From Candidatus Bathyarchaeota archaeon (GTDB lineage Archaea > Thermoproteota > Bathyarchaeia > Bathyarchaeales > Bathycorpusculaceae): a stretch of DNA of 52,887 nucleotides. The notes under the pieces were generated by a model. That model was not told the DNA's origin and did not search any database. It was given only the letters and a program-made list of their open reading frames with translations. The translations under genes and the position numbers were made by a program. This document shows positions 3,637 through 51,849 of the stretch, one piece after another; the first letter of the stretch is position 1; each line of letters opens with the position of its first letter. The stretch spans positions 1 through 52,887 of the forward strand of contig JAOZHW010000010.1 of assembly GCA_026014685.1 (NCBI GenBank), read 5' to 3'.

Positions 3637-6264
3637 TTATGGCCGTTTGCGTAGAACTACGATAATGACTACGCTCATGATGGCTACGAACACGAAGAGA
3701 CCTGCGATTGCTGGAATGAAGTAGAGGTCAGCTGCGGAGGGTTCCTGTGTGGGTTGTGGGGTTGGTGTTGCTGGAGCAGAGACTGCGTAGAATGATGTTC
3801 TGGCTGATGATCCGTAGTAGCCGTTGGTTCCTTCAAAGATTGCTATTACAGTGTATGCGCCGTCAATGTCGGGTGCCCACGCATAGGTGAACATGCCGCT
3901 TGCGTCGGTTGTTGTGGTGCCGATTGTGCGGTAGTTGCCGTTTGAGTCAACTACGTTTATGGTTACAGGTACGCCTGTGACGTCCATGGGCATTGGTTTC
4001 TGCATGTAGACGTATTCCATCCATGAGCTCATGCTTGCGTCAGAAACACAGGGAACACCATTGGGGAACCGTGCTGCTTGCTCGTTCTGTGTTGTGCCTG
4101 CTGCGATGTCGGTAACGGTTCCTCTGATGACTATGGGTGTGCCGACGGTTGTTGCGACATCTGGAGCGGTCACGGTCATTTTGCTCGGTCCTTTGCCGAT
4201 GGAGTAGACCTGCATGTCGTAGGCGTTGAGGTAAGCTATTTGTCCGTCTGCTGTTGGGAAGCCAAAGTCAGCGAATCCGCCAACTGAAGCCCAACTGTCC
4301 ATCTTCCAGATTTCTTGGCCTGTCGTTGCGTTTAAGCATCGGATCTTGTAGTCTCTGTATAGTGGAACGTTTGGTGAGTGTTCGTTGCTGTAGACGTAGA
4401 CTTTGTCGTCGCAGATTGAGCCGACAAAGGTTGGGTAGAGTCCCCAGGAGGTTTCTGTGCCGCTGTTTGTGCTGTTGCCTTCGCCGCCGCCACCGTAAGA
4501 CCAGACTACTTTGCCGTTAGATGTGTCGTATGCGAAGATTTCGCCACCGTAGCCGCCGACGTAGAGTTTGCCGTATGCTACGTAGCCGATTTGTGCGACA
4601 CCGCCGCTGCCGATGGTTGGGTAGTAGTTGAATGCGCGTGTTTCACCGACTGGGCCCCATTTGAGGTTGCCGTTGTCGAGGCTGTAGCCGTACCATTGCA
4701 TGGTTTCTTTGGTGCTTACGAAGAACATGCGGTTTGTTGGGTCTACTGTGCCGAGTTGTAGGGTAATGTTGCCTGGTGGTGTTTGTATGTCTTTAGACCA
4801 CATCAATGAACCGCGTGAGCCTTCTTTGAGGTTGATTGCCCAAATGGTTGCGAAAGCTGTGCTACTGCCTGCTGCGACGCCACCCCATGTGGGTTGGCCA
4901 AAGGTTGATCTCATGTTGCTGTAGCCTAAGAGCAAGTCGTTATCGATTACCCAGCCTACACCAGCGTTGGTTGTTGGCAGTGTTGGAAGGGTTACGTTCC
5001 AAGAGTATGATTGGCGTAGTGTTGTGTTGAAGACTTGGTTTACTGGTCGGTAACCACCTGATGATAAGAGGTTAACTGGACCGTTGCTTACGACCTGTGT
5101 GAAGTTCCACAATGCTAGCCACTTGTTTGGAATGTTGATTTGATAGATTATTGGTTCACCGTATGGTCCGTAGCTCATGGTTCCTGAGGGGACGTCGGTT
5201 ATGTTGCATACCCAGTTTCCTGTCCATGGATCAAACATCATCCATGTAGTGCCTTGAGTAGAGATCAAGTACGAGATTGCACCGTGCTGGTTTGGTGTTT
5301 CAACGTTTATGACTGCTCCAAACGAGGGGTTAACGCTGTAGTTTTGGAACCATATTTGTTGGCCAGTGCGTAAGTCGACACATATGTATCCGCCGCCTGC
5401 ACCGTTGTTGCTGTGGGGTAATCCGTAGTAGAGTCTACCGCTAATGATGATTGGGTTGTTGAACTTAGTTTCGTAAGACAAGCCTGTGTAGAATGCTGCG
5501 CCTTCAACGCCTGTTGGAGATGATGGCGAGTTCGGTAGTTGGTCAAGGTTGTTTCCGCCCATGATACCGCCGAAGGTTATGGGTTTAGTCCACATAACGT
5601 GTGGTGTATCTGGTGCTGTGCCGTCTGGTTGGAAGCGTACTGAACCGAAGCTGTATGCTGCGCCCATTGGTCTGATGTAGTTTGAGGAAATTGAGTACCA
5701 AAGTGCGTTCTGTCCTTCGATTGGTCTTGTCCAGTATTCAGTCGGCAGGGGTGTTACTTCTCCGCCGGGTGCTGGTTCTTCTTGGACGGTTAAGGTTGTG
5801 ACTGCTGAGCTAGGTAAGTATGTGTCGTTAACGAATAGTGAAGCAGGGTTGTATGCGTAGTCTGTGTATTTTTGTCCGGGGAAGGTAAAGTTGAATGTGT
5901 ATGTGCCAATCTGGTTCGGTGTAAATGCGGTGTATGCAGATGAGGTTGTGTCCCAGACTGTTTCCCATGTTACAGTTTCGGTTTTTCCGTCAGGAGCAGT
6001 TATTACCACTTTGAAGTTGTGGAATCTGATGTTGTTGGTAATCAGTGCCCCGTCAGGGATTTTGTCAAGCCAAACTACCACTGCGACTTGTTGGCCGACG
6101 CCTGCTGGGTTGGGTGAGACGTTGATAAATGCAAATGTTGGGATTTGCCATGCTGGGGTATGTGCTGATGCTGTTTGCATTAGTGCCAGTGAGGCACCTG
6201 TTGATATTACTAGTATTGTTGCGATTAAAAGTGCTAGAGTTTTCACTTTGTTTTTATTTGACAT
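3637..6264 (-). CDS. secreted, membrane-anchored PQQ-like beta-propeller protein
   Basis: About 875 residues. I start at the ATG preceded by AAGGAGAAAAG, not at an upstream in-frame codon. A signal peptide occupies residues 1-35 (basic start, then a hydrophobic core ending at A-S-A). An Ig-like domain covers roughly 40-160. The centre (about 190-690) has repeated blades with A-x-D/N-x-x-x-G-x-x-x-W motifs such as A-Y-D-T-S-N-G-K-V-V-W, typical of PQQ-like propellers. An Ig-like domain follows at about 700-825. A Thr/Pro/Gln linker then leads to a C-terminal membrane helix and a K-R-P tail. The protein should face outward, anchored by its C-terminus. Such propellers usually bind ligands or polymers; cofactor binding cannot be judged here. 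Base composition is G/T-rich on the coding strand. Confidence 0.85.
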   Translation of the reverse strand: MSNKNKVKTLALLIATILVISTGASLALMQTASAHTPAWQIPTFAFINVSPNPAGVGQQVAVVVWLDKIPDGALITNNIRFHNFKVVITAPDGKTETVTWETVWDTTSSAYTAFTPNQIGTYTFNFTFPGQKYTDYAYNPASLFVNDTYLPSSAVTTLTVQEEPAPGGEVTPLPTEYWTRPIEGQNALWYSISSNYIRPMGAAYSFGSVRFQPDGTAPDTPHVMWTKPITFGGIMGGNNLDQLPNSPSSPTGVEGAAFYTGLSYETKFNNPIIISGRLYYGLPHSNNGAGGGYICVDLRTGQQIWFQNYSVNPSFGAVINVETPNQHGAISYLISTQGTTWMMFDPWTGNWVCNITDVPSGTMSYGPYGEPIIYQINIPNKWLALWNFTQVVSNGPVNLLSSGGYRPVNQVFNTTLRQSYSWNVTLPTLPTTNAGVGWVIDNDLLLGYSNMRSTFGQPTWGGVAAGSSTAFATIWAINLKEGSRGSLMWSKDIQTPPGNITLQLGTVDPTNRMFFVSTKETMQWYGYSLDNGNLKWGPVGETRAFNYYPTIGSGGVAQIGYVAYGKLYVGGYGGEIFAYDTSNGKVVWSYGGGGEGNSTNSGTETSWGLYPTFVGSICDDKVYVYSNEHSPNVPLYRDYKIRCLNATTGQEIWKMDSWASVGGFADFGFPTADGQIAYLNAYDMQVYSIGKGPSKMTVTAPDVATTVGTPIVIRGTVTDIAAGTTQNEQAARFPNGVPCVSDASMSSWMEYVYMQKPMPMDVTGVPVTINVVDSNGNYRTIGTTTTDASGMFTYAWAPDIDGAYTVIAIFEGTNGYYGSSARTSFYAVSAPATPTPQPTQEPSAADLYFIPAIAGLFVFVAIMSVVIIVVLRKRP

Positions 6265-6500
6265 TTTTCTTTTCTCCTTGTGGCAGTAAACTAAGCGTTT
6301 GATGCATATTAACGTTTCAGGGGTCGCCAAAATCAAAGAATTCAGGCACTTTTTTGGACAATTATACCAAGCAAACCTGCACTTCTTTGTATTTATTTAA
6401 TAATGAAAGTATACGTTTCGCCGAAAAGCACCGCGGTTGTTACAAAAAATTTCTCAAAAGAATCCTTAAAGAGCATTTAAAGCAAGAACGCTCTAGAAGA

Positions 6501-6531
6501 TTATATAGCCAAGTAAAAGCTACTAACCCCT
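6501..6531 (+). promoter_or_regulatory. TATA box of a leaderless gene
   Basis: GATTATATAGCC is centred about 26 bases before the flavodoxin ATG and there is no ribosome binding site between them. Transcription should therefore begin at or within a few bases of the start codon. Confidence 0.55.
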
Positions 6532-6948
6532 ATGAACGCTTGTGTAGTTTACTTTTCCAGAACTGGAAACACAAAAAAATTCGCCCAAGCCATAGCAGAC
6601 GCCACAAAAGCCCCCCTATACGACCTAAATTCGGCAGCAACCTCAACACTGGAAAACTGCGACCTGCTAATCTTCGGAACCCCCGTTGAAGGCGCCAGCC
6701 CCACAAAAGAAGCCCTCACCTACATAGAAAACATGCCCACTGTTTCAGGCAAAAAAGCAATCTTGTTCTGCACCTATCGCCTCTTTGGAAACCAGCGAGC
6801 CATGAAAACCGTAGAGAAGGCACTATCTGCTAGGGGCTACGAGACGATTTTGAAGGTTTCAAAGAAGGGGATGAAGCCTGAGCAGCAGCAAGTTGACTTC
6901 TCAAAAGAGCTAGCTCAAGTGAAGAAAGCTCTGGAAACTGTAACATAA
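6532..6948 (+). CDS. flavodoxin-fold protein
   Basis: A 138-residue FMN-binding electron carrier of flavodoxin size. The N-terminal phosphate-binding loop reads S-R-T-G-N-T-K-K directly after the first beta strand. The second conserved loop, F-G-T-P-V-E-G, is near residue 49 and contacts the flavin ring in this fold. The C-terminal region is short and basic. Its likely role is low-potential electron transfer in the cytosol. Neighbours are a tiny cysteine protein and a nitroreductase, so this stretch looks like a redox group, although the genes are on different strands. The start appears leaderless. The partner enzymes are not known. Confidence 0.85.
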   Translation: MNACVVYFSRTGNTKKFAQAIADATKAPLYDLNSAATSTLENCDLLIFGTPVEGASPTKEALTYIENMPTVSGKKAILFCTYRLFGNQRAMKTVEKALSARGYETILKVSKKGMKPEQQQVDFSKELAQVKKALETVT

Positions 6949-7002
6949 AATAAAGAAAGGACAAATGGACGTTCGGTATCAAAACGTAGTGATGATGCTA
7001 TT

Positions 7003-7318: not shown

Positions 7319-7840
7319 CTAAAAGCTTTCGTTGTAGACCACTTCACTTGCGGGTCGTCTGGACCTTGCAGGCGGAGACTCATCGGGGTACCCGACGGGA
7401 ATCATGGCGACTGGCCGCATCTCTTCGGGGGCTTTCACGATTTTTCTAACCGCCTCTTCCCTGAATGCGCCAACCCAGCAGGCACCCAAACCCAAAGAGC
7501 AAGCAGTTAAAAGAATGTTCTGAGTTGCTGCCGCGGTGTCTTGAATGCAATAAAGCATCCTGCCGCGTTCCCCGTAGCTTTGTTGGGCACGTTTTTCATC
7601 CGCGCAAACAACAAACACAACCGGTGCCTCTGCAACCATCCTTTGCCCCAGAGCGGCTTTTGAGAGAGCCAGCTTTGTCGCTTGGTCTTTGACGAGCACA
7701 AACGCCCATGACTGTGCGTTGCCTGCGGAGGGCGCGAGGAGTGCCGCTTCGACGAGTTTGTCGATTGCTTCTTGGGAGACATCTTGTTTTTTGAAGGCTC
7801 TTATGCTTCGGCGGTCTTTAATTGCTTCTACGAGTTCCAT
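7319..7840 (-). CDS. nitroreductase-family FMN oxidoreductase
   Basis: A 173-residue NAD(P)H-dependent flavin enzyme. The N-terminal R-R-S-I-R-x-F motif starts at residue 11 and binds FMN phosphate. A-P-S-A-G-N-A-Q-S-W near 37-46 and the G-L-G-A-C-W-V-G-A segment near 118 are family hallmarks, and the C-terminal G-Y-P motif is present. The family acts as homodimers that reduce nitro groups, quinones or dehalogenation substrates, so the true substrate cannot be told. GGGGACC lies just before the ATG. The length matches small single-domain members. Confidence 0.9.
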   Translation of the reverse strand: MELVEAIKDRRSIRAFKKQDVSQEAIDKLVEAALLAPSAGNAQSWAFVLVKDQATKLALSKAALGQRMVAEAPVVFVVCADEKRAQQSYGERGRMLYCIQDTAAATQNILLTACSLGLGACWVGAFREEAVRKIVKAPEEMRPVAMIPVGYPDESPPARSRRPASEVVYNESF

Positions 7841-7938
7841 AATGGTCCCCTACACTGAAGTTTGGTTGTAGAAAATAAAACCGTTTCTTTCTGCGGCACT
7901 TTAAGCGTAAGAGTCTTAAGTTTTACTGGAGATTTTAC

Positions 7939-8008
7939 TTTTGGAATGATGTGCACTAGAGTCTGAGCTTACGCTGTGAATAAGACTCGACGGGCAAACT
8001 GACCAAAA
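7939..8008 (+). ncRNA. candidate box C/D guide sRNA
   Basis: The order of elements matches an archaeal C/D sRNA of about 70 nt. A terminal stem TTTTGG (7939-7944) pairs with CCAAAA (8003-8008). Box C is ATGATGT at 7946-7952, one base off RUGAUGA. Box D' is CTGA at 7963-7966, a weak C' is TGTGAAT at 7975-7981, and box D is CTGA at 7999-8002 directly against the closing stem. This is the kink-turn layout. The guide next to D is about 13-17 nt and the one next to D' about 10 nt. It fills the gap before the zinc-finger gene. The rRNA or tRNA targets were not identified. The weak C' box and long second guide lower certainty. Confidence 0.45.
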
Positions 8009-8009
8009 A

Positions 8010-8222
8010 TTAACCAACATGAATGGCCGTTACGTCTTCGCCGTGGAATTCTCCATGCACAGTCCGCAGATGCTTCAAATGCACCGTGTGAAGATGTTGC
8101 TCAGCAGCCTCTTTTAAGTCGAATTTTCTGCCGCATTCGGGACACATGAACTCTTTATCGCTGATAGGGGTTATTTTTGTGCTGTGTCCTTCGGTATGTT
8201 TGGGTTCATCTAAATTGGACAT
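8010..8222 (-). CDS. single C2H2 zinc-finger protein
   Basis: A 70-residue protein with one classical finger: M-C-P-E-C-G-R-K-F-D-L followed by H-L-H-T-V-H, i.e. C-x2-C and two or three candidate histidines about 12 residues later. Residues 1-25 are polar and probably disordered, and the tail is His-rich (H-G-E-F-H-G-E-D). The ATG with GAGG 7 bases upstream is chosen over an upstream in-frame TTG that overlaps the ribosome site. Such small C2H2 proteins in archaea are probable nucleic-acid or protein binders; the target is unknown. It is divergent from the eL22-like gene. Confidence 0.75.
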   Translation of the reverse strand: MSNLDEPKHTEGHSTKITPISDKEFMCPECGRKFDLKEAAEQHLHTVHLKHLRTVHGEFHGEDVTAIHVG

Positions 8223-8414
8223 GAACAAACCTCAGTTCCAATGTCTGCGAGAATTTATTTTAACGTATGTGGCTGTAAGCAAGTAACCACAAACACTGCT
8301 CCATAAGGAACATGCCACTGAAGTAGCATGAGCGGAAAATTTATCAAGCCTGTAGCTGTCAACAAACAAGCACAACGCAAACTTATTGCGATGCTCATCG
8401 AGGTGAAATAGAAC

Positions 8415-8684
8415 ATGGTTGAAATGAAAGTTGACGCTTCCGAACTCAAAGGCGACCTAATAGAAAAACTCTCAGATTTCCTCAAAGAAAAAACAGGCGG
8501 AGAAGTCAGCACAGAAGGCAAAACCGTAACCGTAAAAGGCGAAGGCGAAGCACTCAGCAAAAAATACGTGCGCATAACCGTCAAAAAATTCCTACACAAG
8601 AACGAGTTGACCGACACCTTCAAAGTCATCGGCGACGAGGAAGCACTCAAAATTAAAGAGCGCAAAATAGTCGAAGAAGACTAA
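8415..8684 (+). CDS. eL22-like ribosomal protein
   Basis: 89 residues, all in the size range of an L22e core. The central part aligns by eye with eukaryotic eL22: a T-V-x-V-K-G strand, then the basic stretch L-S-K-K-Y-V-R-I-T-V-K-K-F-L-H-K-N-E-L-x-D, corresponding to the S-K-R-Y-L-K-Y-L-T-K-K-Y-L-K-K-N-x-L-R-D pattern. A strand and an acidic tail E-E-D follow, another eL22 trait. AGGTGA lies 8 bases before the ATG. eL22 sits on the large subunit of eukaryotic ribosomes and is reported from few archaeal groups. Whether this copy is a true ribosomal component or a relative is not shown by sequence alone. Confidence 0.75.
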   Translation: MVEMKVDASELKGDLIEKLSDFLKEKTGGEVSTEGKTVTVKGEGEALSKKYVRITVKKFLHKNELTDTFKVIGDEEALKIKERKIVEED

Positions 8685-9330: not shown

Positions 9331-10296
9331 ATGAGCAAACGCCTAAACACAAACCAAGATTTCGTCATCCTAGACAAATTAACAAAGAACTTCAACGGCT
9401 TCAAAGCCCTAAACGAAGTATCCTTAACAATAAAACAGGGCGAAATCTTCGGCTACATAGGCCCCAACGGCGCAGGCAAAACCACCACCATGAAAATCCT
9501 CGTCGGCTTAATCAGCGACTTTCAAGGCCAAGTCACCATAGGCGGCTACTCAGCACCCGAAAAGAAAGACGAAATCCACAAACTACTAGGCTATCTGCCC
9601 CAAAGCGTAGCCTTTCAAGATTGGCGCACTATTGACCACGCACTGAAAACCTTCGGCAAACTCTCAGGCTTAACTGACGCACAACTTGAAGAACGCATCC
9701 CCCCGCTTCTGGACATGCTGGGCTTAGCTGACGCCAGACATAAACGGATTTCCTATTTATCGGGCGGTATGACGCAGAAAGTTGGGTTGGCTCAGGCGCT
9801 TCTTCATGAACCTAAACTATTGGTTTTAGATGAACCGATGGGTGGACTTGACCCACTGAGTCGCCGCCAATTCAAAGACATCGTGCTTAAACTCGCAGAA
9901 AAAGGCACCACAGTCCTCTTCTCCTCCCACATCCTAAGCGATGTACAAGATGTTGCCGACCGAGTGGGCATAATTAGCCACGGTCGAATCAAAGAAGTAG
10001 GCACAATTAGCGAGCTAAAAACCCACTTTATGCTCCAAAAAACCGTGCAAGTGCTCCTCTCAGGCGAAAGCAGCAGCTGGAAACAGTTAGGTTCAGTGAG
10101 AAACGTTTCAGAAGTGGTTCAACCTTCTTCGGGGGTAGTGTTGTTGAAGCTTAAAGCTGAAGCAGACGCAGACCAAGCCGTAAACGACATTGTGCAAAAA
10201 ATCGTTGAATTACACATCCCTGTTCGGGGTATCTGGCAAGTGGAACCTTCGCTAGACCAAATCTACTTCAACTACGTTTCGGAGGCTGAAAACTAA
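9331..10296 (+). CDS. ABC transporter ATP-binding protein
   Basis: 321 residues from the ATG that has GGTGA five bases upstream; an in-frame GTG three codons earlier is less likely. Walker A is G-P-N-G-A-G-K-T at about 44-51, the signature is Y-L-S-G-G-M near 140, and Walker B is L-L-V-L-D-E-P near 160 with G-G-L-D-P after it. The switch histidine follows in S-S-H-I-L. The C-terminal extension of about 90 residues is typical of the DrrA/NatA/CcmA-like exporters. It drives the membrane partner encoded by the next gene, whose ATG overlaps this stop by one base. The cargo could be a drug, ion or lipid. Confidence 0.93.
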   Translation: MSKRLNTNQDFVILDKLTKNFNGFKALNEVSLTIKQGEIFGYIGPNGAGKTTTMKILVGLISDFQGQVTIGGYSAPEKKDEIHKLLGYLPQSVAFQDWRTIDHALKTFGKLSGLTDAQLEERIPPLLDMLGLADARHKRISYLSGGMTQKVGLAQALLHEPKLLVLDEPMGGLDPLSRRQFKDIVLKLAEKGTTVLFSSHILSDVQDVADRVGIISHGRIKEVGTISELKTHFMLQKTVQVLLSGESSSWKQLGSVRNVSEVVQPSSGVVLLKLKAEADADQAVNDIVQKIVELHIPVRGIWQVEPSLDQIYFNYVSEAEN

Positions 10297-10961
10297 TGCA
10301 GCTCGCACTACTCTTCACCGATGAATTGAAGGGCTTTTACAAGTCTAAAGTTATGGTCTTCCTCTGGATAGGGTTACCCGTAATCGCCCTGTTATTCCGC
10401 TTCATTCAAGTCAGCTCAACAGGCCAAGAGATTCCCTTCACAGTTATCTCTTCGCTGGTTGTCTCAAGCATAGGAGGAACCTTAGCGGCGGTTATGTTGG
10501 CAGTGTTTTTAATTAACGAAAAGAACCGTCGTGTCTATGACCTATTCTTGATTAGACCCATAAAACGCCGAGACATATTGCTGGCCAAGTTTTTCTCGGT
10601 TTACACATGTGTTGCCATAGCAGCCGCCATAGCTGTGTTTGTTGGGATTGTGACAGACTTTGCCACAACAGGAACCCTTTCCTCTACAGTACTTACAAAC
10701 GCAGGGCAGTCACTTGCAATAAGCTTAAGCATGATTGCTGTTTCCTGCGCGGCCGGCGTACTCATCGGTGTCGCTTCGCCCTCGGTGCTTGTCGGAGCCA
10801 TACTGGTAATTTACGGAGGTAACCAGATTTCAGTCATTCCGCTCCTACCAACTTTGCTCAATTTACCCGACGCAACACTATTCACCATTATTATCGCCGT
10901 TGCCGTAGCTACTGGGTTACTTGCGGGAGCGATTGCACTGTTCAACAAAAAACAGTTCTAA
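10296..10961 (+). CDS. ABC-2 type permease
   Basis: 221 residues with six hydrophobic segments (about 20-38, 48-72, 98-120, 135-160, 165-180 and 195-215), the ABC-2 layout. The N-terminal cytoplasmic stretch is short and basic. A motif I-N-E-K-N-R-R-V-Y-D-L-F-L-I-R-P in the first cytoplasmic loop resembles the coupling region of ABC-2 permeases. Its start overlaps the ATPase stop (TAATG), implying translational coupling, and the two form an exporter. A small CGCCA-TGGCG hairpin follows the stop. Confidence 0.88.
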   Translation: MQLALLFTDELKGFYKSKVMVFLWIGLPVIALLFRFIQVSSTGQEIPFTVISSLVVSSIGGTLAAVMLAVFLINEKNRRVYDLFLIRPIKRRDILLAKFFSVYTCVAIAAAIAVFVGIVTDFATTGTLSSTVLTNAGQSLAISLSMIAVSCAAGVLIGVASPSVLVGAILVIYGGNQISVIPLLPTLLNLPDATLFTIIIAVAVATGLLAGAIALFNKKQF

Positions 10962-44934: not shown

Positions 44935-45945
44935 TTGCAATCGGTGCCCGATTTGGCTGGACTACTCGACCCCCTAACCGTAAAAGGTGTTACTCTCCGT
45001 AATCGCATAGTTATGCCTCCGATGCAGTCAGGCAGAGCAGACTTCGACGGCGCCGTCACAACTAAACTCATCAACTTCTACGTTCGCCGCTCAGCCGCGC
45101 TTGGATTGCCAATAGTTGAGCACGCATACATCTCGCCTATGGGCAAAATCGGCCCCAAACAACTTGGAATATACGATGACAAACTGCTGCCAGGGTTTGA
45201 GAAGCTTGCCGCAGGTATTCACTCCGTCGGCGCCCCCGCAGTTGTCCAGATAAGCCATGCTGGTGCTGTAGCCACCAAGAAAGTCATAGGTGAAACTCCT
45301 GTCGGTCCCTCCATGCGAGACAAAACGCGGATGCTAGAAAAAAGCGAACTCTACGCTATCGCTGACGAATACGCCGCCGCGGCTGAACGTGCAGTTAAAG
45401 CGGGCTTTGATGGTGTGGAACTCCATGGAGCGCACGGATATTTGCTAAATCAGTTCTTCACGCCGTTGCTGAACAAGCGTCAAGACGAGTTTGGGGGTTC
45501 ATTGGAGAATCGAATGCATTTCCCGCTTCTTGTTGTGGAAAAGGTGCGTAAGACCTTGGGTGGTCTGCTTTTGCTTTATCGAGTTGGTTCGGATGATTTG
45601 GCGCCGATGGGCACGCACATTCAAGATGCAGTGGTTTTTTCACAGAAACTCCAAGAAGTAGGGGTAGACATTTTGGATGTTTCAGGTGGCATGTGTGGTA
45701 GCGAACCTAAACAGCTCCAACACATCAAAGGCTACTTCATACCCCAAGCCTCAGCCATTAAAAGCGCCGTGAAGGTTCCTGTGATTGGCGTCGGCGGCAT
45801 AAAAGAGGCAGAGTTTGCAGATAACTTGGTTAAAGCGGGGCGGGTTGATTTGGTTGCTGTTGGACGTGCGTTGTGGCATGATAACGAATGGGCAGTCAAG
45901 GCCTCAAAAACATTAAGTAACAGTCAGCAAAGTGTCCAAGTGTAA
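44935..45945 (+). CDS. old-yellow-enzyme family NADH:flavin oxidoreductase
   Basis: About 336 residues. L-L-D-P-L-T-V-K-G-V-T-L-R-N-R-I-V-M-P-P-M opens the FMN barrel. G-F-D-G-V-E-L-H-G-A-H-G-Y-L-L-N-Q-F near 158 is the family signature, including N-Q-F, and R-x-D-E-F-G-G-S-L-E-N-R follows. V-G-V-G-G-I and A-V-G-R-A-L bind FMN phosphate near the end. There is no C-terminal iron-sulfur/FAD extension of the 2,4-dienoyl-CoA reductase type. The true start is uncertain; the TTG codons after the kinase stop are the only ones close to the conserved part. The substrate is an activated alkene, unknown here. Confidence 0.85.
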   Translation: MQSVPDLAGLLDPLTVKGVTLRNRIVMPPMQSGRADFDGAVTTKLINFYVRRSAALGLPIVEHAYISPMGKIGPKQLGIYDDKLLPGFEKLAAGIHSVGAPAVVQISHAGAVATKKVIGETPVGPSMRDKTRMLEKSELYAIADEYAAAAERAVKAGFDGVELHGAHGYLLNQFFTPLLNKRQDEFGGSLENRMHFPLLVVEKVRKTLGGLLLLYRVGSDDLAPMGTHIQDAVVFSQKLQEVGVDILDVSGGMCGSEPKQLQHIKGYFIPQASAIKSAVKVPVIGVGGIKEAEFADNLVKAGRVDLVAVGRALWHDNEWAVKASKTLSNSQQSVQV

Positions 45946-45991
45946 AGTAACACACACATAATTATTACTTTTTTGCCCTTAAAATCTGCAA

Positions 45992-46279
45992 ATGGTGTGT
46001 ACTGTGAAGACTCAACGGCCCTCCCGACTAGAACTCTACATAGAAATCCTCGCTTCACTCGAAGAACTCCAAGTCGCCAACCTCCTCACCCTCCAAGAAA
46101 AAACTCAAATCGGACCTGCCTTCCTAAAACACGCCATAAGCTTCCTAGAAAAGCAAGATTTAATCCGCAAAGAAAACGTCGGAACACAAACCCTCTACAA
46201 AGCCACCCCCCGCGGCGAACGTGTAACAAGATACTTTTTGGTGCAAGGCGAAGAAGCAAGCTGTGCCCTAATGAAGTAA
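45992..46279 (+). CDS. winged-helix DNA-binding protein
   Basis: 95 residues of the small archaeal winged-helix type: E-L-Y-I-E-I-L-A-S-L, then K-T-Q-I-G-P-A-F-L-K-H-A-I-S-F-L as recognition helix near 45, and the wing L-I-R-K-E...T-L-Y-K-A-T-P-R-G-E-R near 62-78. It starts at ATG, or at a GTG four codons later; the AT-rich stretch about 25 bases before suggests a leaderless message. Before integration of the neighbouring element it would have lain directly against the tRNA-Ala 3' end. Its stop touches the attachment core. Confidence 0.8.
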   Translation: MVCTVKTQRPSRLELYIEILASLEELQVANLLTLQEKTQIGPAFLKHAISFLEKQDLIRKENVGTQTLYKATPRGERVTRYFLVQGEEASCALMK

Positions 46280-46308
46280 AAAGTGGACCGAGCGGGATTT
46301 GAACCCGC
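46279..46308 (-). repeat. attL, 30-bp tRNA-Ala core
   Basis: Identical to 51770-51799 over 30 bases. It contains the T arm and acceptor 3' strand of tRNA-Ala (from 46284 on) plus a few A bases beyond. No other part of a tRNA is present here, so this is a displaced fragment, not a gene. It lies at the element's left end, inside the N-terminal integrase piece. Confidence 0.93.
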
Positions 46309-46675: not shown

Positions 46676-47320
46676 TTGACCTTGCAATGTGAAAACAAGC
46701 TTAAAGAAGCGAGATTCTTTTTTAATAAACTTGAGAAAATTATGCAAGACACAGCAAATGAAGAAGAATTTCTGTATTTTTTAAGTGCTTTCCTTTGTTC
46801 CTGGCGGAGCGTAATTGATGTTATGTTGTATGATTATGCGGATAAATATCATTTTGGATTTTCTCGAGAAGAGAATTTAGTTATTCGCGATTTTGAGGTA
46901 GCTGCAAGAGTCACTAATAACGCTGATGCAACTCAATTTATCCAGTGGCTTTTACGACAACAAGGAAATCTTTCAAATAATCCGCTTTGGAGAAAGAGGA
47001 ATATAATAATTCATAGAGGTTATCCAGATATTGTATATCAAGTTTACACCTCTGGGTCAATGGCTTTTTCGTCTTCATTTGTTGTCGCTCAACCAACTGC
47101 GGTTAACGGGACATCTTTGCTGACGAGACAAGATTTAGAAACTCCTGCTTTGGCTGGAAGCGCTGTTCCTACATCAGTGACCAATAATGTTACTCCTACT
47201 AATGTAGGCGATATTACATTTCATGATTGCCCAGACAGAAGCGCTTTGGATTACTGTCGTGAGGCGCTAAAACAAATGGAAGACGTTGTGGCTTCTGCGT
47301 TCCAGCAATTCGGCAGGTAA
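46676..47320 (+). CDS. HEPN-like protein, possible ribonuclease toxin
   Basis: 214 residues starting at a TTG just after the long inverted repeat. Residues 1-125 are helical: a coiled segment F-F-F-N-K-L-E-K-I-M, then F-L-Y-F-L-S-A-F-L-C-S-W-R-S-V-I-D-V-M. R108-N-I-I-I-H113 gives the R-x4-H motif of HEPN ribonucleases, preceded by W-R-K. The C-terminal part (125-190) is Ser/Thr/Ala-rich and probably unstructured, ending with a helix. HEPN proteins cut RNA as toxins or defence effectors. No antitoxin of the MNT type is adjacent. The family call rests on the motif and helical context only. Confidence 0.5.
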   Translation: MTLQCENKLKEARFFFNKLEKIMQDTANEEEFLYFLSAFLCSWRSVIDVMLYDYADKYHFGFSREENLVIRDFEVAARVTNNADATQFIQWLLRQQGNLSNNPLWRKRNIIIHRGYPDIVYQVYTSGSMAFSSSFVVAQPTAVNGTSLLTRQDLETPALAGSAVPTSVTNNVTPTNVGDITFHDCPDRSALDYCREALKQMEDVVASAFQQFGR

Positions 47321-47476: not shown

Positions 47477-48022
47477 TTAGGGATCTTTGACTTTTGCTAG
47501 TTTGTTTTTGTGCGCTTTAAAATATTGTCTGGTTTTCTTATTACCTGATTTCTGTGAGTCATGGGTTTTTGCAAAGATTGGTAGAGATTTCACAGGTTCA
47601 ATAGGGGTAAATATGTCTCCAGTTCTTAATTGTGCCAAATTTATTAATTCTAATTTTTCCTTTCTGGTAATTGTTTTTTTAATTTTACAGACCGCTACCA
47701 TTTTTATAACATTTAGTCTGTATATCTTTTTGTATCTCGTTTGTACATTTTTGATTAGGAACTTCTTTTCTTCAAGGTGTTTTAGGTGTGAAATTAGTGT
47801 TGGGCGAGTCATTCTAGTAAGCTCAAGCAATTCTTTAAACCTAAATTCAACTTTATCGTTCAATTTAGCTTGCGAAAATAATTTGTCATAGATCTGTTGA
47901 CAAGGGGTATCTTGTAAACACTCGCGGAATTTGCAATTTTCCGCTTCTATATCTTTAAGATATCTCTGATATTTGCTATTCACTTCTTGAAGCGCTTTGT
48001 TTCTATCGTTAGCTTCTTCCAT
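47477..48022 (-). CDS. winged-helix regulator with N-terminal coiled coil
   Basis: 181 residues from the ATG with GGGAAG upstream; an in-frame TTG four codons earlier is possible. Residues 1-35 are polar and helical, likely a coiled coil for dimerising. Two cysteines follow (C-K-F-R-E-C, D-T-P-C). The winged helix lies at about 58-108: F-K-E-L-L-E-L, T-R-M-T-R-P-T-L-I-S-H-L-K-H-L-E as the recognition helix, and K-F-L-I-K-N-V as the wing. The tail is very basic. It is divergent from Rep and shares a promoter region with a candidate operator, so it probably controls copy number and itself. Confidence 0.7.
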   Translation of the reverse strand: MEEANDRNKALQEVNSKYQRYLKDIEAENCKFRECLQDTPCQQIYDKLFSQAKLNDKVEFRFKELLELTRMTRPTLISHLKHLEEKKFLIKNVQTRYKKIYRLNVIKMVAVCKIKKTITRKEKLELINLAQLRTGDIFTPIEPVKSLPIFAKTHDSQKSGNKKTRQYFKAHKNKLAKVKDP

Positions 48023-48037
48023 TTTGCTTCCCAAATT

Positions 48038-49568: not shown

Positions 49569-50174
49569 CTAAGCCCTTTTTGGAACAATAAAGACCTTAA
49601 CTGTCATATTTTGAATTGCCCCGCTCAAGTCTCTTTCAATTCCTCTTGGATTAATGATGTTCTCCTCGGGGTCATATACGAAAAAATAAAGAATCCTGCA
49701 TTTAGGATGTGTTTTGTAGTGCGGTATATCATTTATTAATTCCTTTCCCAACTCTTTAGCATCAAGTTTTTTCCTTGTTCTTTTTACTTCTATACCTATC
49801 TGTTCTTGGTCAAGCAAAAAATCAAGCCGAGTTGAAGAGCCTGCAAATTCTGTAGTAGGGACTTCGCGCCTTATATCGTCAAAATAAAGGCGTAGTAATC
49901 CTTCTAAGAGGTCTTGAACGTCATACTCATCATTCATTGAAAATGGCAGTCTGTTATCATATCTATCACTTATTTCTTTGACCACTAAATGAAATCTTTG
50001 AATTATATTTTCCACTAAATTTTGGGCGACAACTAATTGAATAGGCGGCTGAAATTCAGATAAAATTTCGGCAATGCTCTTCTGAGCTCCGATTAGCCGA
50101 GTGGCTAAGTCACCGATTAATTTCTCAGTCTGATTTGAAGAGTTGCTCTCTGAGGGCTTTGAAAATGTTTTCAT
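49569..50174 (-). CDS. DpnII/MboI-like PD-(D/E)XK nuclease
   Basis: 201 residues. Residues 10-75 are helical. E-Y-D-V-Q-D-L-L-E-G-L-L-R-L-Y-F-D-D-I-R near 83-102 and S-S-T-R-L-D-F-L-L near 113 lead to the active site D118, E129-V-K131. K-R-T-R-K-K-L-D-A-K-E-L-G near 131, F-F-V-Y-D-P-E near 164 and N-P-R-G-I-E-R-D-L-S near 175 complete the pattern of DpnII/MboI-like restriction nuclease domains. No methylase is present in the element. The start lies 50 bases inside the end of the DUF5343 gene, so the two are tightly coupled. A phage or plasmid defence role is inferred. Confidence 0.8.
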   Translation of the reverse strand: MKTFSKPSESNSSNQTEKLIGDLATRLIGAQKSIAEILSEFQPPIQLVVAQNLVENIIQRFHLVVKEISDRYDNRLPFSMNDEYDVQDLLEGLLRLYFDDIRREVPTTEFAGSSTRLDFLLDQEQIGIEVKRTRKKLDAKELGKELINDIPHYKTHPKCRILYFFVYDPEENIINPRGIERDLSGAIQNMTVKVFIVPKRA

Positions 50175-50760
50175 AAACTTTTGCGTCTTCTGTTACTGGC
50201 AAAGTTATCTGGATATTCATATTGACCGCAAATCCTTCTGTGATTTGTGGAATTATTTGTTTTTTCTTTTCGCTCTTTATGCCGCTCTCCGAGTTGGCTT
50301 TTTCTTCATTTTCCTGTTTTTCTTTGGTTTCTTTAGGTGCTTCAGCTTCAAAGTCTGCTAATTGGCATAAATTAATGAAAGTGTTGACTATTAGGTCAAC
50401 GGTGTTTTTTGCTTTTCCTGTTTTTGAGCTAAAATAAGCATAGAGGTCATCTTTGGCTTTTCGATTTGCTTGAGGATAGAGTGAGAACAAATCACTGTAT
50501 CCACTCCTTATACCTTTAGCTAATGCTGCTCGCGCAGTTGCTGGTGACTTATAGGACACCCATAATTCTGTAGGATTTTTGCTTTCATCAATGAATCCAA
50601 TAAATTTCAGTACTTGCAGAATATATCTGTCATTTCTACTTTTGAATCCGCATTGATTTAACCAATTATAATCTACTTTTTGGGGAACTCCAGCTTCTTG
50701 AATTTTCTGGAAATATTTTGGAATTTTGCCAGCCAAGTTTGTATAGGGTATTTCTGACAT
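50125..50760 (-). CDS. DUF5343-family protein
   Basis: 211 residues. L-A-G-K-I-P-K-Y-F-Q-K-I-Q-E-A-G-V-P-Q near 9-27, G-F-K-S-R-N-D-R-Y-I-L near 38 and the helix F-S-L-Y-P-Q-A-N near 92 match DUF5343. Residues 138-170 are Lys/Glu-rich and probably disordered, followed by a strand-like M-N-I-Q-I-T-L-P-V and a helix. CTTAAATAC on the minus strand is a likely TATA box about 50 bases upstream of the ATG. DUF5343 genes often sit next to nuclease genes. It may be a DNA- or signal-sensing partner of the nuclease. Confidence 0.78.
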   Translation of the reverse strand: MSEIPYTNLAGKIPKYFQKIQEAGVPQKVDYNWLNQCGFKSRNDRYILQVLKFIGFIDESKNPTELWVSYKSPATARAALAKGIRSGYSDLFSLYPQANRKAKDDLYAYFSSKTGKAKNTVDLIVNTFINLCQLADFEAEAPKETKEKQENEEKANSESGIKSEKKKQIIPQITEGFAVNMNIQITLPVTEDAKVYENIFKALREQLFKSD

Positions 50761-51769: not shown

Positions 51770-51799
51770 AAAAGTGGACCGAGCGGGATTTGAACCCGC
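51770..51799 (-). repeat. attR, 30-bp tRNA-Ala core
   Basis: The right-hand copy of the 30-bp attachment repeat, identical to 46279-46308. Here it forms the 3' part of the intact tRNA-Ala gene plus five bases beyond its end. Confidence 0.93.
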
Positions 51800-51849
51800 G
51801 GCTTCCGCGTTGCGAACGCGGCGATCATACCAGACTGATCTACCGGCCC
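51775..51849 (-). tRNA. tRNA-Ala (anticodon CGC)
   Basis: Cloverleaf with acceptor GGGCCGG/TCGGTCC including the G3-U70 pair that identifies tRNA-Ala. The D arm is GATC/GATC, the anticodon stem CCGCG/CGCGG with loop TTCGCAA (anticodon CGC, codon GCG), the variable loop 5 nt, and the T arm GCGGG-TTCAAAT-CCCGC. The discriminator is A and CCA is not encoded. The gene is the integration target of the neighbouring element and is kept whole by it. Confidence 0.96.

Follow-up and report, generated by a model that had tools for sequence, protein, structure and literature searches.

The PDC defence candidates originate from an embedding survey (Payne et al. 2024, cited in PMC12988326), and most of them are untested according to PMC12988326. 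In one of these candidates, the apparently untested PDC-M34, a DUF5343 protein (PDC-M34A) is usually accompanied by a HEPN_Swt1 protein (PDC-M34B). Here we describe a gene pair from a Candidatus Bathyarchaeota archaeon whose DUF5343 product matches the PADLOC model PDC-M34A over nearly its full length (E 8.3e-54) and, as in PDC-M34, has a small effector gene directly downstream. However, the effector is a PD-(D/E)XK nuclease of Pfam family PF18742, which was hit by the PADLOC model Aga_Helical-REase (E 8.6e-23) instead of by the HEPN_Swt1-type model PDC-M34B; the pair is therefore a variant of PDC-M34 and not a member as modelled. The initial annotation, made from the sequence alone, had stated that no system was described for archaea of this type. 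This was too strong, since PADLOC already lists DUF5343 as a candidate defence component (PDC-M34A) and counts the nuclease family among the short-Argonaute effectors. The terms DUF5343, PDC-M34, DpnII-MboI and PF18742 were not mentioned in the literature searched, which did not extend to the PDC-defining preprint.

The nuclease domain is homologous to that of the Helical-REase effectors of short prokaryotic Argonaute systems: a profile of 11 nuclease sequences matched EcbAgaN in the PDB (23wq) at E 1.8e-10, which relates the protein to the Argonaute-associated nucleases. In contrast to these, its partner is DUF5343, and neither an Argonaute (MID-PIWI) nor an APAZ domain was found among the annotated ORFs of the element (Pfam, PADLOC). 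In another short-Argonaute system, NbaSPARDA, the PD-(D/E)XK domain DREN shows no activity by itself but turns into a collateral nuclease upon oligomerisation, and its catalytic residue is required for defence against phage and plasmid (PMC12205087). DREN provides a mechanistic model by analogy, although its catalytic residues are D-Q-K and those of the archaeal nuclease D-E-K. The likeness to the type II restriction-modification (R-M) enzymes DpnII and MboI is limited to a Pfam label and to the PD-(D/E)XK nuclease type, whereas a cognate methyltransferase is missing from the scanned ORFs of the element (Pfam), in agreement with the earlier view that this is not a classical R-M pair.

Solo PF18742 proteins of bacterial plasmids and phages (~264 aa, phrog_29450) contain this nuclease domain too, with 45-54% identity over residues 52-199. 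Unlike the archaeal nuclease, these carry a fused N-terminal domain of ~110 aa and have no DUF5343 neighbour. We found the solo domain in 208 bacterial plasmid records, mostly from conjugative enterobacterial plasmids (including L006 and L008), and in 14 viral contigs; the latter were recovered with a broader alignment, whereas a scan with a two-sequence nuclease alignment gave no match in viral contigs. Most of the plasmid and viral copies are longer proteins with their own N-terminal domain, without DUF5343. The solo plasmid proteins are often annotated as 'malate dehydrogenase', a clearly wrong name. In the viral collection, solo nucleases lie on small contigs (L081-L083), and a related copy in L007 is surrounded by genes typical of filamentous phages, namely Zot-family (zonular occludens toxin) genes and II/X-family replication genes.

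The DUF5343-nuclease pair and its integrated element

The window, that is, the whole stretch of 52,887 nucleotides analysed, is an entire contig (C10) of a 2.3-Mb genome, which is archaeal as judged by an archaeal SRP RNA scoring over the family cut-off; the archaeal 16S model found no match in the assembly. Both the nuclease and DUF5343 are encoded once in this genome. The pair is carried by an element of 5491 bp, integrated between two 30-bp direct repeats, 100% identical, that copy the 3' end of a tRNA-Ala(CGC) gene (Table 1). The initial annotation placed the pair as cargo on a 5.5-kb plasmid; its location on a mobile element stands, but the element is integrated, at tRNA-Ala(CGC), and its size is the spacing of the repeats. 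With a tyrosine integrase, tRNA-derived att repeats and a replication gene, it has the hallmarks of integrative archaeal plasmids. To the left of the element, chromosomal DNA (45700-46278) matches L075 with 87% identity, ending beside the att copy of that locus.

Table 1. Features of the integrated element and its target site. L073, sister element; L030, L051 and L130, other loci cited in the text.
Feature	Position	Strand	Support
attL-like 30-bp direct repeat	46279-46308		Copy of the tRNA-Ala 3' end; identical to 51770-51799
214-aa ORF, left variable slot	46676-47320	+	RNIIIH (RX4H, HEPN-like) motif by eye
185-aa ORF, weak winged-helix-like similarity	47477-48034	-	HTH_5 E 0.02; 40% match in Rep element L130
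Rep-like protein, 301 aa	48097-49002	+	HVH motif by eye; 88% identical in L073
Conserved backbone ORF, 93 aa	49003-49284	+	85% identical in L073, also placed after rep
PF18742 (DpnII-MboI) PD-(D/E)XK nuclease, 201 aa; proposed effector	49569-50174	-	PF18742 E 1.4e-46
DUF5343 protein, 211 aa; proposed sensor/regulator	50125-50760	-	PF17278 E 2.8e-40
Tyrosine integrase, 287 aa	50858-51721	-	PF00589 E 3.6e-21; 92% identical in L073, 42% in L030
attR-like 30-bp repeat	51770-51799		Inside the tRNA-Ala(CGC) 3' end
tRNA-Ala(CGC), integration target	51774-51849	-	Other elements at the same site in same-genus genomes

The Rep-like protein did not match any Pfam family, and its motifs suggest an initiator of the rolling-circle type. 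No family match was obtained for the 214-aa ORF of the left slot, and the syntenic slot of the sister element contains an unrelated ORF of 307 aa. Judging from its RNIIIH motif, the 214-aa product is possibly another HEPN-like protein. A second element of the same Rep and integrase family, with Rep at 9690-10712 and integrase at 7652-8614, was noticed on another contig of the same genome (L125, G000:C5:1-18000).

Families and coordinates of the two genes had been correctly assigned in the initial annotation, as had their overlap of 50 nt on the same strand. The overlapping start of the nuclease is plausibly the real one, because the next in-frame GTG lies as far downstream as about codon 54, and because its N-terminus can be aligned with that of the L051 homologue (see below). 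Transcription of both genes from one promoter is plausible, as they overlap on one strand and are preceded, as judged by eye, by a TATA-like CTTAAATA ~50 nt upstream of the DUF5343 ATG and an SD-like AAGGT a short way upstream of it. In strand and overlap the genes thus have the layout of the small co-transcribed pairs of type II toxin-antitoxin systems. Both reading frames are intact.

Residues D118, E129 and K131 of the nuclease, singled out from the start as retained, were invariant in homologue alignments of 6 and 11 sequences. The AlphaFold model (pLDDT 83.7) shows the PD-(D/E)XK order of helix, strands, helix and strands, so that residues and predicted fold both point to a PD-(D/E)XK nuclease. 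A long N-terminal helix (12-41) precedes the modelled core, and the first nine residues, encoded in the gene overlap, are disordered in the model. Comparison of the model with PDB folds placed Can2 and Shedu best, with Card1 also matching, all of them weakly (E 4e-3 or worse).

A second pair of this type was found in another genus of the same archaeal family (L051), with DUF5343 at 7465-8085 and a PF18742 nuclease at 8024-8641, overlapping by 62 nt. The two nucleases are 52% identical over their full length, and the L051 DUF5343 matches PDC-M34A (E 1.3e-46). Its presence in L051 indicates that the pair is a conserved arrangement and not a chance neighbourhood, with two nuclease-type pairs found in all. 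There is a tyrosine integrase gene ~2 kb upstream of the L051 pair and no homologue of the window's Rep beside it. The region adjoining the pair (3926-6975) encodes an integrase and a DNA glycosylase-like protein (PADLOC OGG, Pfam Adenine_glyco), perhaps as additional cargo.

Partners of DUF5343 and composition of the window protein

DUF5343 genes are rare and sporadic, being present in 3 of 349 sampled genomes of the window's own phylum, 4 of 257 of its class, 8 of 299 in the phylum of a Sphingomonas locus, and 10 of 297 in the phylum of a Thermodesulfobacteriota locus. None was found in viral contigs by pattern scan, or in phages or plasmids by tblastn. We read the flanks of all hits and considered as assessable those loci containing both the DUF5343 gene and its downstream side, leaving out L011/L013 and L052, which are cut by contig ends. 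Three weak PF17278 matches were set aside: that in L027 was not in a frame matching an ORF, that in L028 fell below the cut-off in a lipoprotein-like ORF, and that in L047 was a fragment.

A small putative effector was the next same-strand gene in all 18 assessable loci, and these effectors belong to five classes. Besides the PF18742 nucleases (window and L051), the partners comprise Swt1-type HEPN proteins (L022, L023, L024, L042 and L043; PF18731 E 2e-13 for L023), to which PADLOC assigned PDC-M34B in L023 and L042; Hypoth_Ymh proteins (L044 and L045; PF09509 E 1.1e-27 for L045); DUF4145-like proteins with a GD(K/Q)S(S/A)H motif (L025, L026, L046, L048, L049 and L050; E 0.003 for L025, below the Pfam cut-off); and unclassified proteins with an RNxCAH (RX4H) motif recognised by eye (L010, L029 and L030). 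The four types outside the nuclease class are putatively HEPN-like, an assignment that for the RNxCAH and DUF4145-like classes relies on motifs seen by eye or weak matches.

Several of these pairs lie among defence genes. In L010 the pair is inside a BREX-type operon (PglX, BrxHI and PglZ, with overwhelming matches), and in L029 a type IIG R-M gene is the next gene to the pair. Type I R-M genes are found on both sides of the pair in L049, and further R-M genes occur close to it in L030 (HsdR-like), L045 (IIG-like) and L048 (type II). The initial annotation had called for a survey of DUF5343 beside this nuclease and of its position in defence islands and mobile elements; confinement to housekeeping contexts was not seen in our sample, in which DUF5343 was always paired with an effector and repeatedly adjoined R-M or BREX genes.

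The window DUF5343 consists of an N-domain (~1-141), a linker and a C-tail (~171-211), and its two ends have different affinities. The N-domain is 61% identical to that of L030, which has an RNxCAH partner, and 35% to that of L051, which has a nuclease partner; conversely, the C-tail (171-211) is 66% identical to L051 and 46% to L030. As for phylogeny, the window protein groups with L030 and apart from L051 in the N-domain tree (support 100/99), and joins L051 in the C-tail tree with modest support (79/88). Of the sites that the window protein shares with only one of the two, 43 go with L030 and 7 with L051 in the N-domain, against 2 and 9 in the tail (Fisher p 2.8e-5), with the switch at about residues 150-170. 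The simplest reading of these comparisons is that recombination in the linker gave an L030-like N-domain a new tail and effector. Tail history follows the effector, and the C-tail is therefore probably the part that docks it, although linkage through the 50-nt gene overlap explains part of the signal.

On the effector side, the N-terminal segment of the nuclease resembles the N-terminus of the RNxCAH partner, the archaeal type of putative HEPN partner (hhalign E 1.9e-4). A docking segment common to all effectors was ruled out, as only these two share one. As regards the fold of DUF5343, Foldseek returned no significant PDB match, and the N-domain is predicted to be all-helical with a short hairpin in a model that rests on three sequences. 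A winged-helix N-domain, a weak guess from the sequence pattern, found no support in Foldseek or when its profile was compared with that of a local winged-helix family.

Cargo exchange in the sister plasmid and in related Rep elements

A sister element (L073) occupies the same tRNA-Ala site in a genome of the window's genus and shares closely related integrase and Rep proteins (Table 1), with ~85% DNA identity to the window's element up to the cargo slot. Where the latter has the DUF5343-nuclease pair, L073 contains Hypoth_Ymh, GmrSD_N, HNH and N6/N4-methyltransferase genes. Thus rep and int are kept, whereas the content of the slot is dispensable and gives way to unrelated cargo. In other species, att-like repeats of the tRNA-Ala(CGC) end flank an OLD/AriA-like ATPase (L074, 5512-7740) and a lone CD-NTase (SMODS; L078, 4647-6700). 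The tRNA-Ala(CGC) gene appears as a small hotspot in the genus.

Homologues of Rep were present in 23 of 257 genomes of the class, mostly beside an integrase. Small integrative Rep elements (L115-L132) are widespread in this archaeal class and often located at tRNA genes. Between or near their Rep and integrase genes we found TIR (L120), FRG and GmrSD_N (L131), PDC-M41A/B (L118) and a NERD-domain protein (L130); other Rep elements contained no recognisable defence gene, so that the carriage of defence cargo is a tendency of these elements. The literature searched apparently does not mention them as a family of defence-cargo carriers. Pentapeptide-repeat proteins are also found among their cargo. 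The DUF5343 gene of L030 and its RNxCAH partner lie beside an integrase gene whose product is 42% identical to that of the window.

Proposed function and alternatives

We lean towards reading the pair as a sensor or regulator with a swappable, docked nuclease effector, which would provide element-borne and probably abortive defence. In such a two-protein, immune-type module, DUF5343 would be the constant part, with a variable C-tail that holds the effector, the product of the overlapping downstream gene, in a docked and inactive state. The N-domain may recognise or respond to an invader, either a virus or a competing plasmid, sensing being a conjecture. Release or oligomerisation would then free the PD-(D/E)XK nuclease to cut nucleic acid without strict sequence choice, and the invader would be stopped, with the cell or all foreign DNA as the price. 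The integrative plasmid would bear this module in its defence-cargo slot; a role in defence or plasmid maintenance, as suggested in the initial annotation, fits its position as cargo of a mobile element.

The main rival is a toxin-antitoxin addiction module, with the nuclease as toxin and DUF5343 as antitoxin, that would retain the element in the lineage. Its appeal lies in the two small overlapping genes, the first for a putative regulator and the second toxin-like, borne by a 5.5-kb element that also encodes Rep and an integrase; docking of antitoxin and toxin is equally consistent with the tail-effector linkage, and the R-M genes standing in for the pair in L073 are also addictive. HEPN proteins are a common toxin type, to which the HEPN partners of DUF5343 would belong. 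We nevertheless judge addiction to be rather unlikely as the main role, since DUF5343-HEPN pairs also occur in chromosomes, within a BREX operon or next to R-M genes, where plasmid maintenance is unneeded, and since the TIR, FRG with GmrSD_N, and PDC-M41 genes in the slot of other family elements are not typical addiction modules.

That the pair stands in the slot where the sister plasmid has an R-M system, together with the intact catalytic triad of the nuclease, would also suit restriction without a methyltransferase, in which DUF5343 would bind DNA, perhaps in modified form, and guide the nuclease there, either in a type IV-like manner or for the exclusion of competitor plasmids, with no suicide involved. 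The helices and short hairpin predicted for the N-domain are compatible with a DNA-binding fold, but the winged-helix profile comparison was empty and DUF5343 had no PDB match. Moreover, most other DUF5343 partners are HEPN-like, and such proteins are normally RNases, so DNA targeting by DUF5343 is not the general pattern and we regard restriction of this kind as improbable. Finally, the small size of the element and the absence of the pair from other elements with a Rep of this family could be explained by a function in plasmid replication or copy number, or by a decaying passenger with no present role. We give this very little credence, because neither frame is broken and the catalytic residues are conserved, because unrelated cargo is swapped into a dispensable slot while rep and int are retained, and because the homologous pair of another genome has no such Rep next to it.

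Extending the sensor-effector reading beyond this locus, DUF5343 could be the half that serves recognition and as adaptor in a large, so far undescribed modular immune family, with a logic like that of Argonaute-APAZ or CBASS. HEPN RNases and PD-(D/E)XK nucleases would plug in through the swappable C-tail, recombination in the linker would re-arm the sensor by giving it a new effector, and the archaeal carriers would be integrative defence-cargo plasmids. We put this forward as a tentative possibility, in which we place less trust than in the reading of the pair itself.

Archaeal immunity beyond CRISPR and restriction-modification is poorly known (PMC12988326). To the catalogued DUF5343 component, the present locus adds a nuclease that replaces the HEPN partner, a second archaeal copy of the resulting pair, a chimaeric DUF5343 protein, and the exchange of the pair with R-M genes in a sister plasmid. 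It brings to light a plasmid family with a cargo slot that swaps defence genes, and the recombination point within the DUF5343 gene predicts which part of the protein contacts the effector. The window thus offers a compact, clonable case in which an uncharacterised DUF5343 protein is coupled to a nuclease related to Argonaute effectors, making the function of DUF5343 directly testable.
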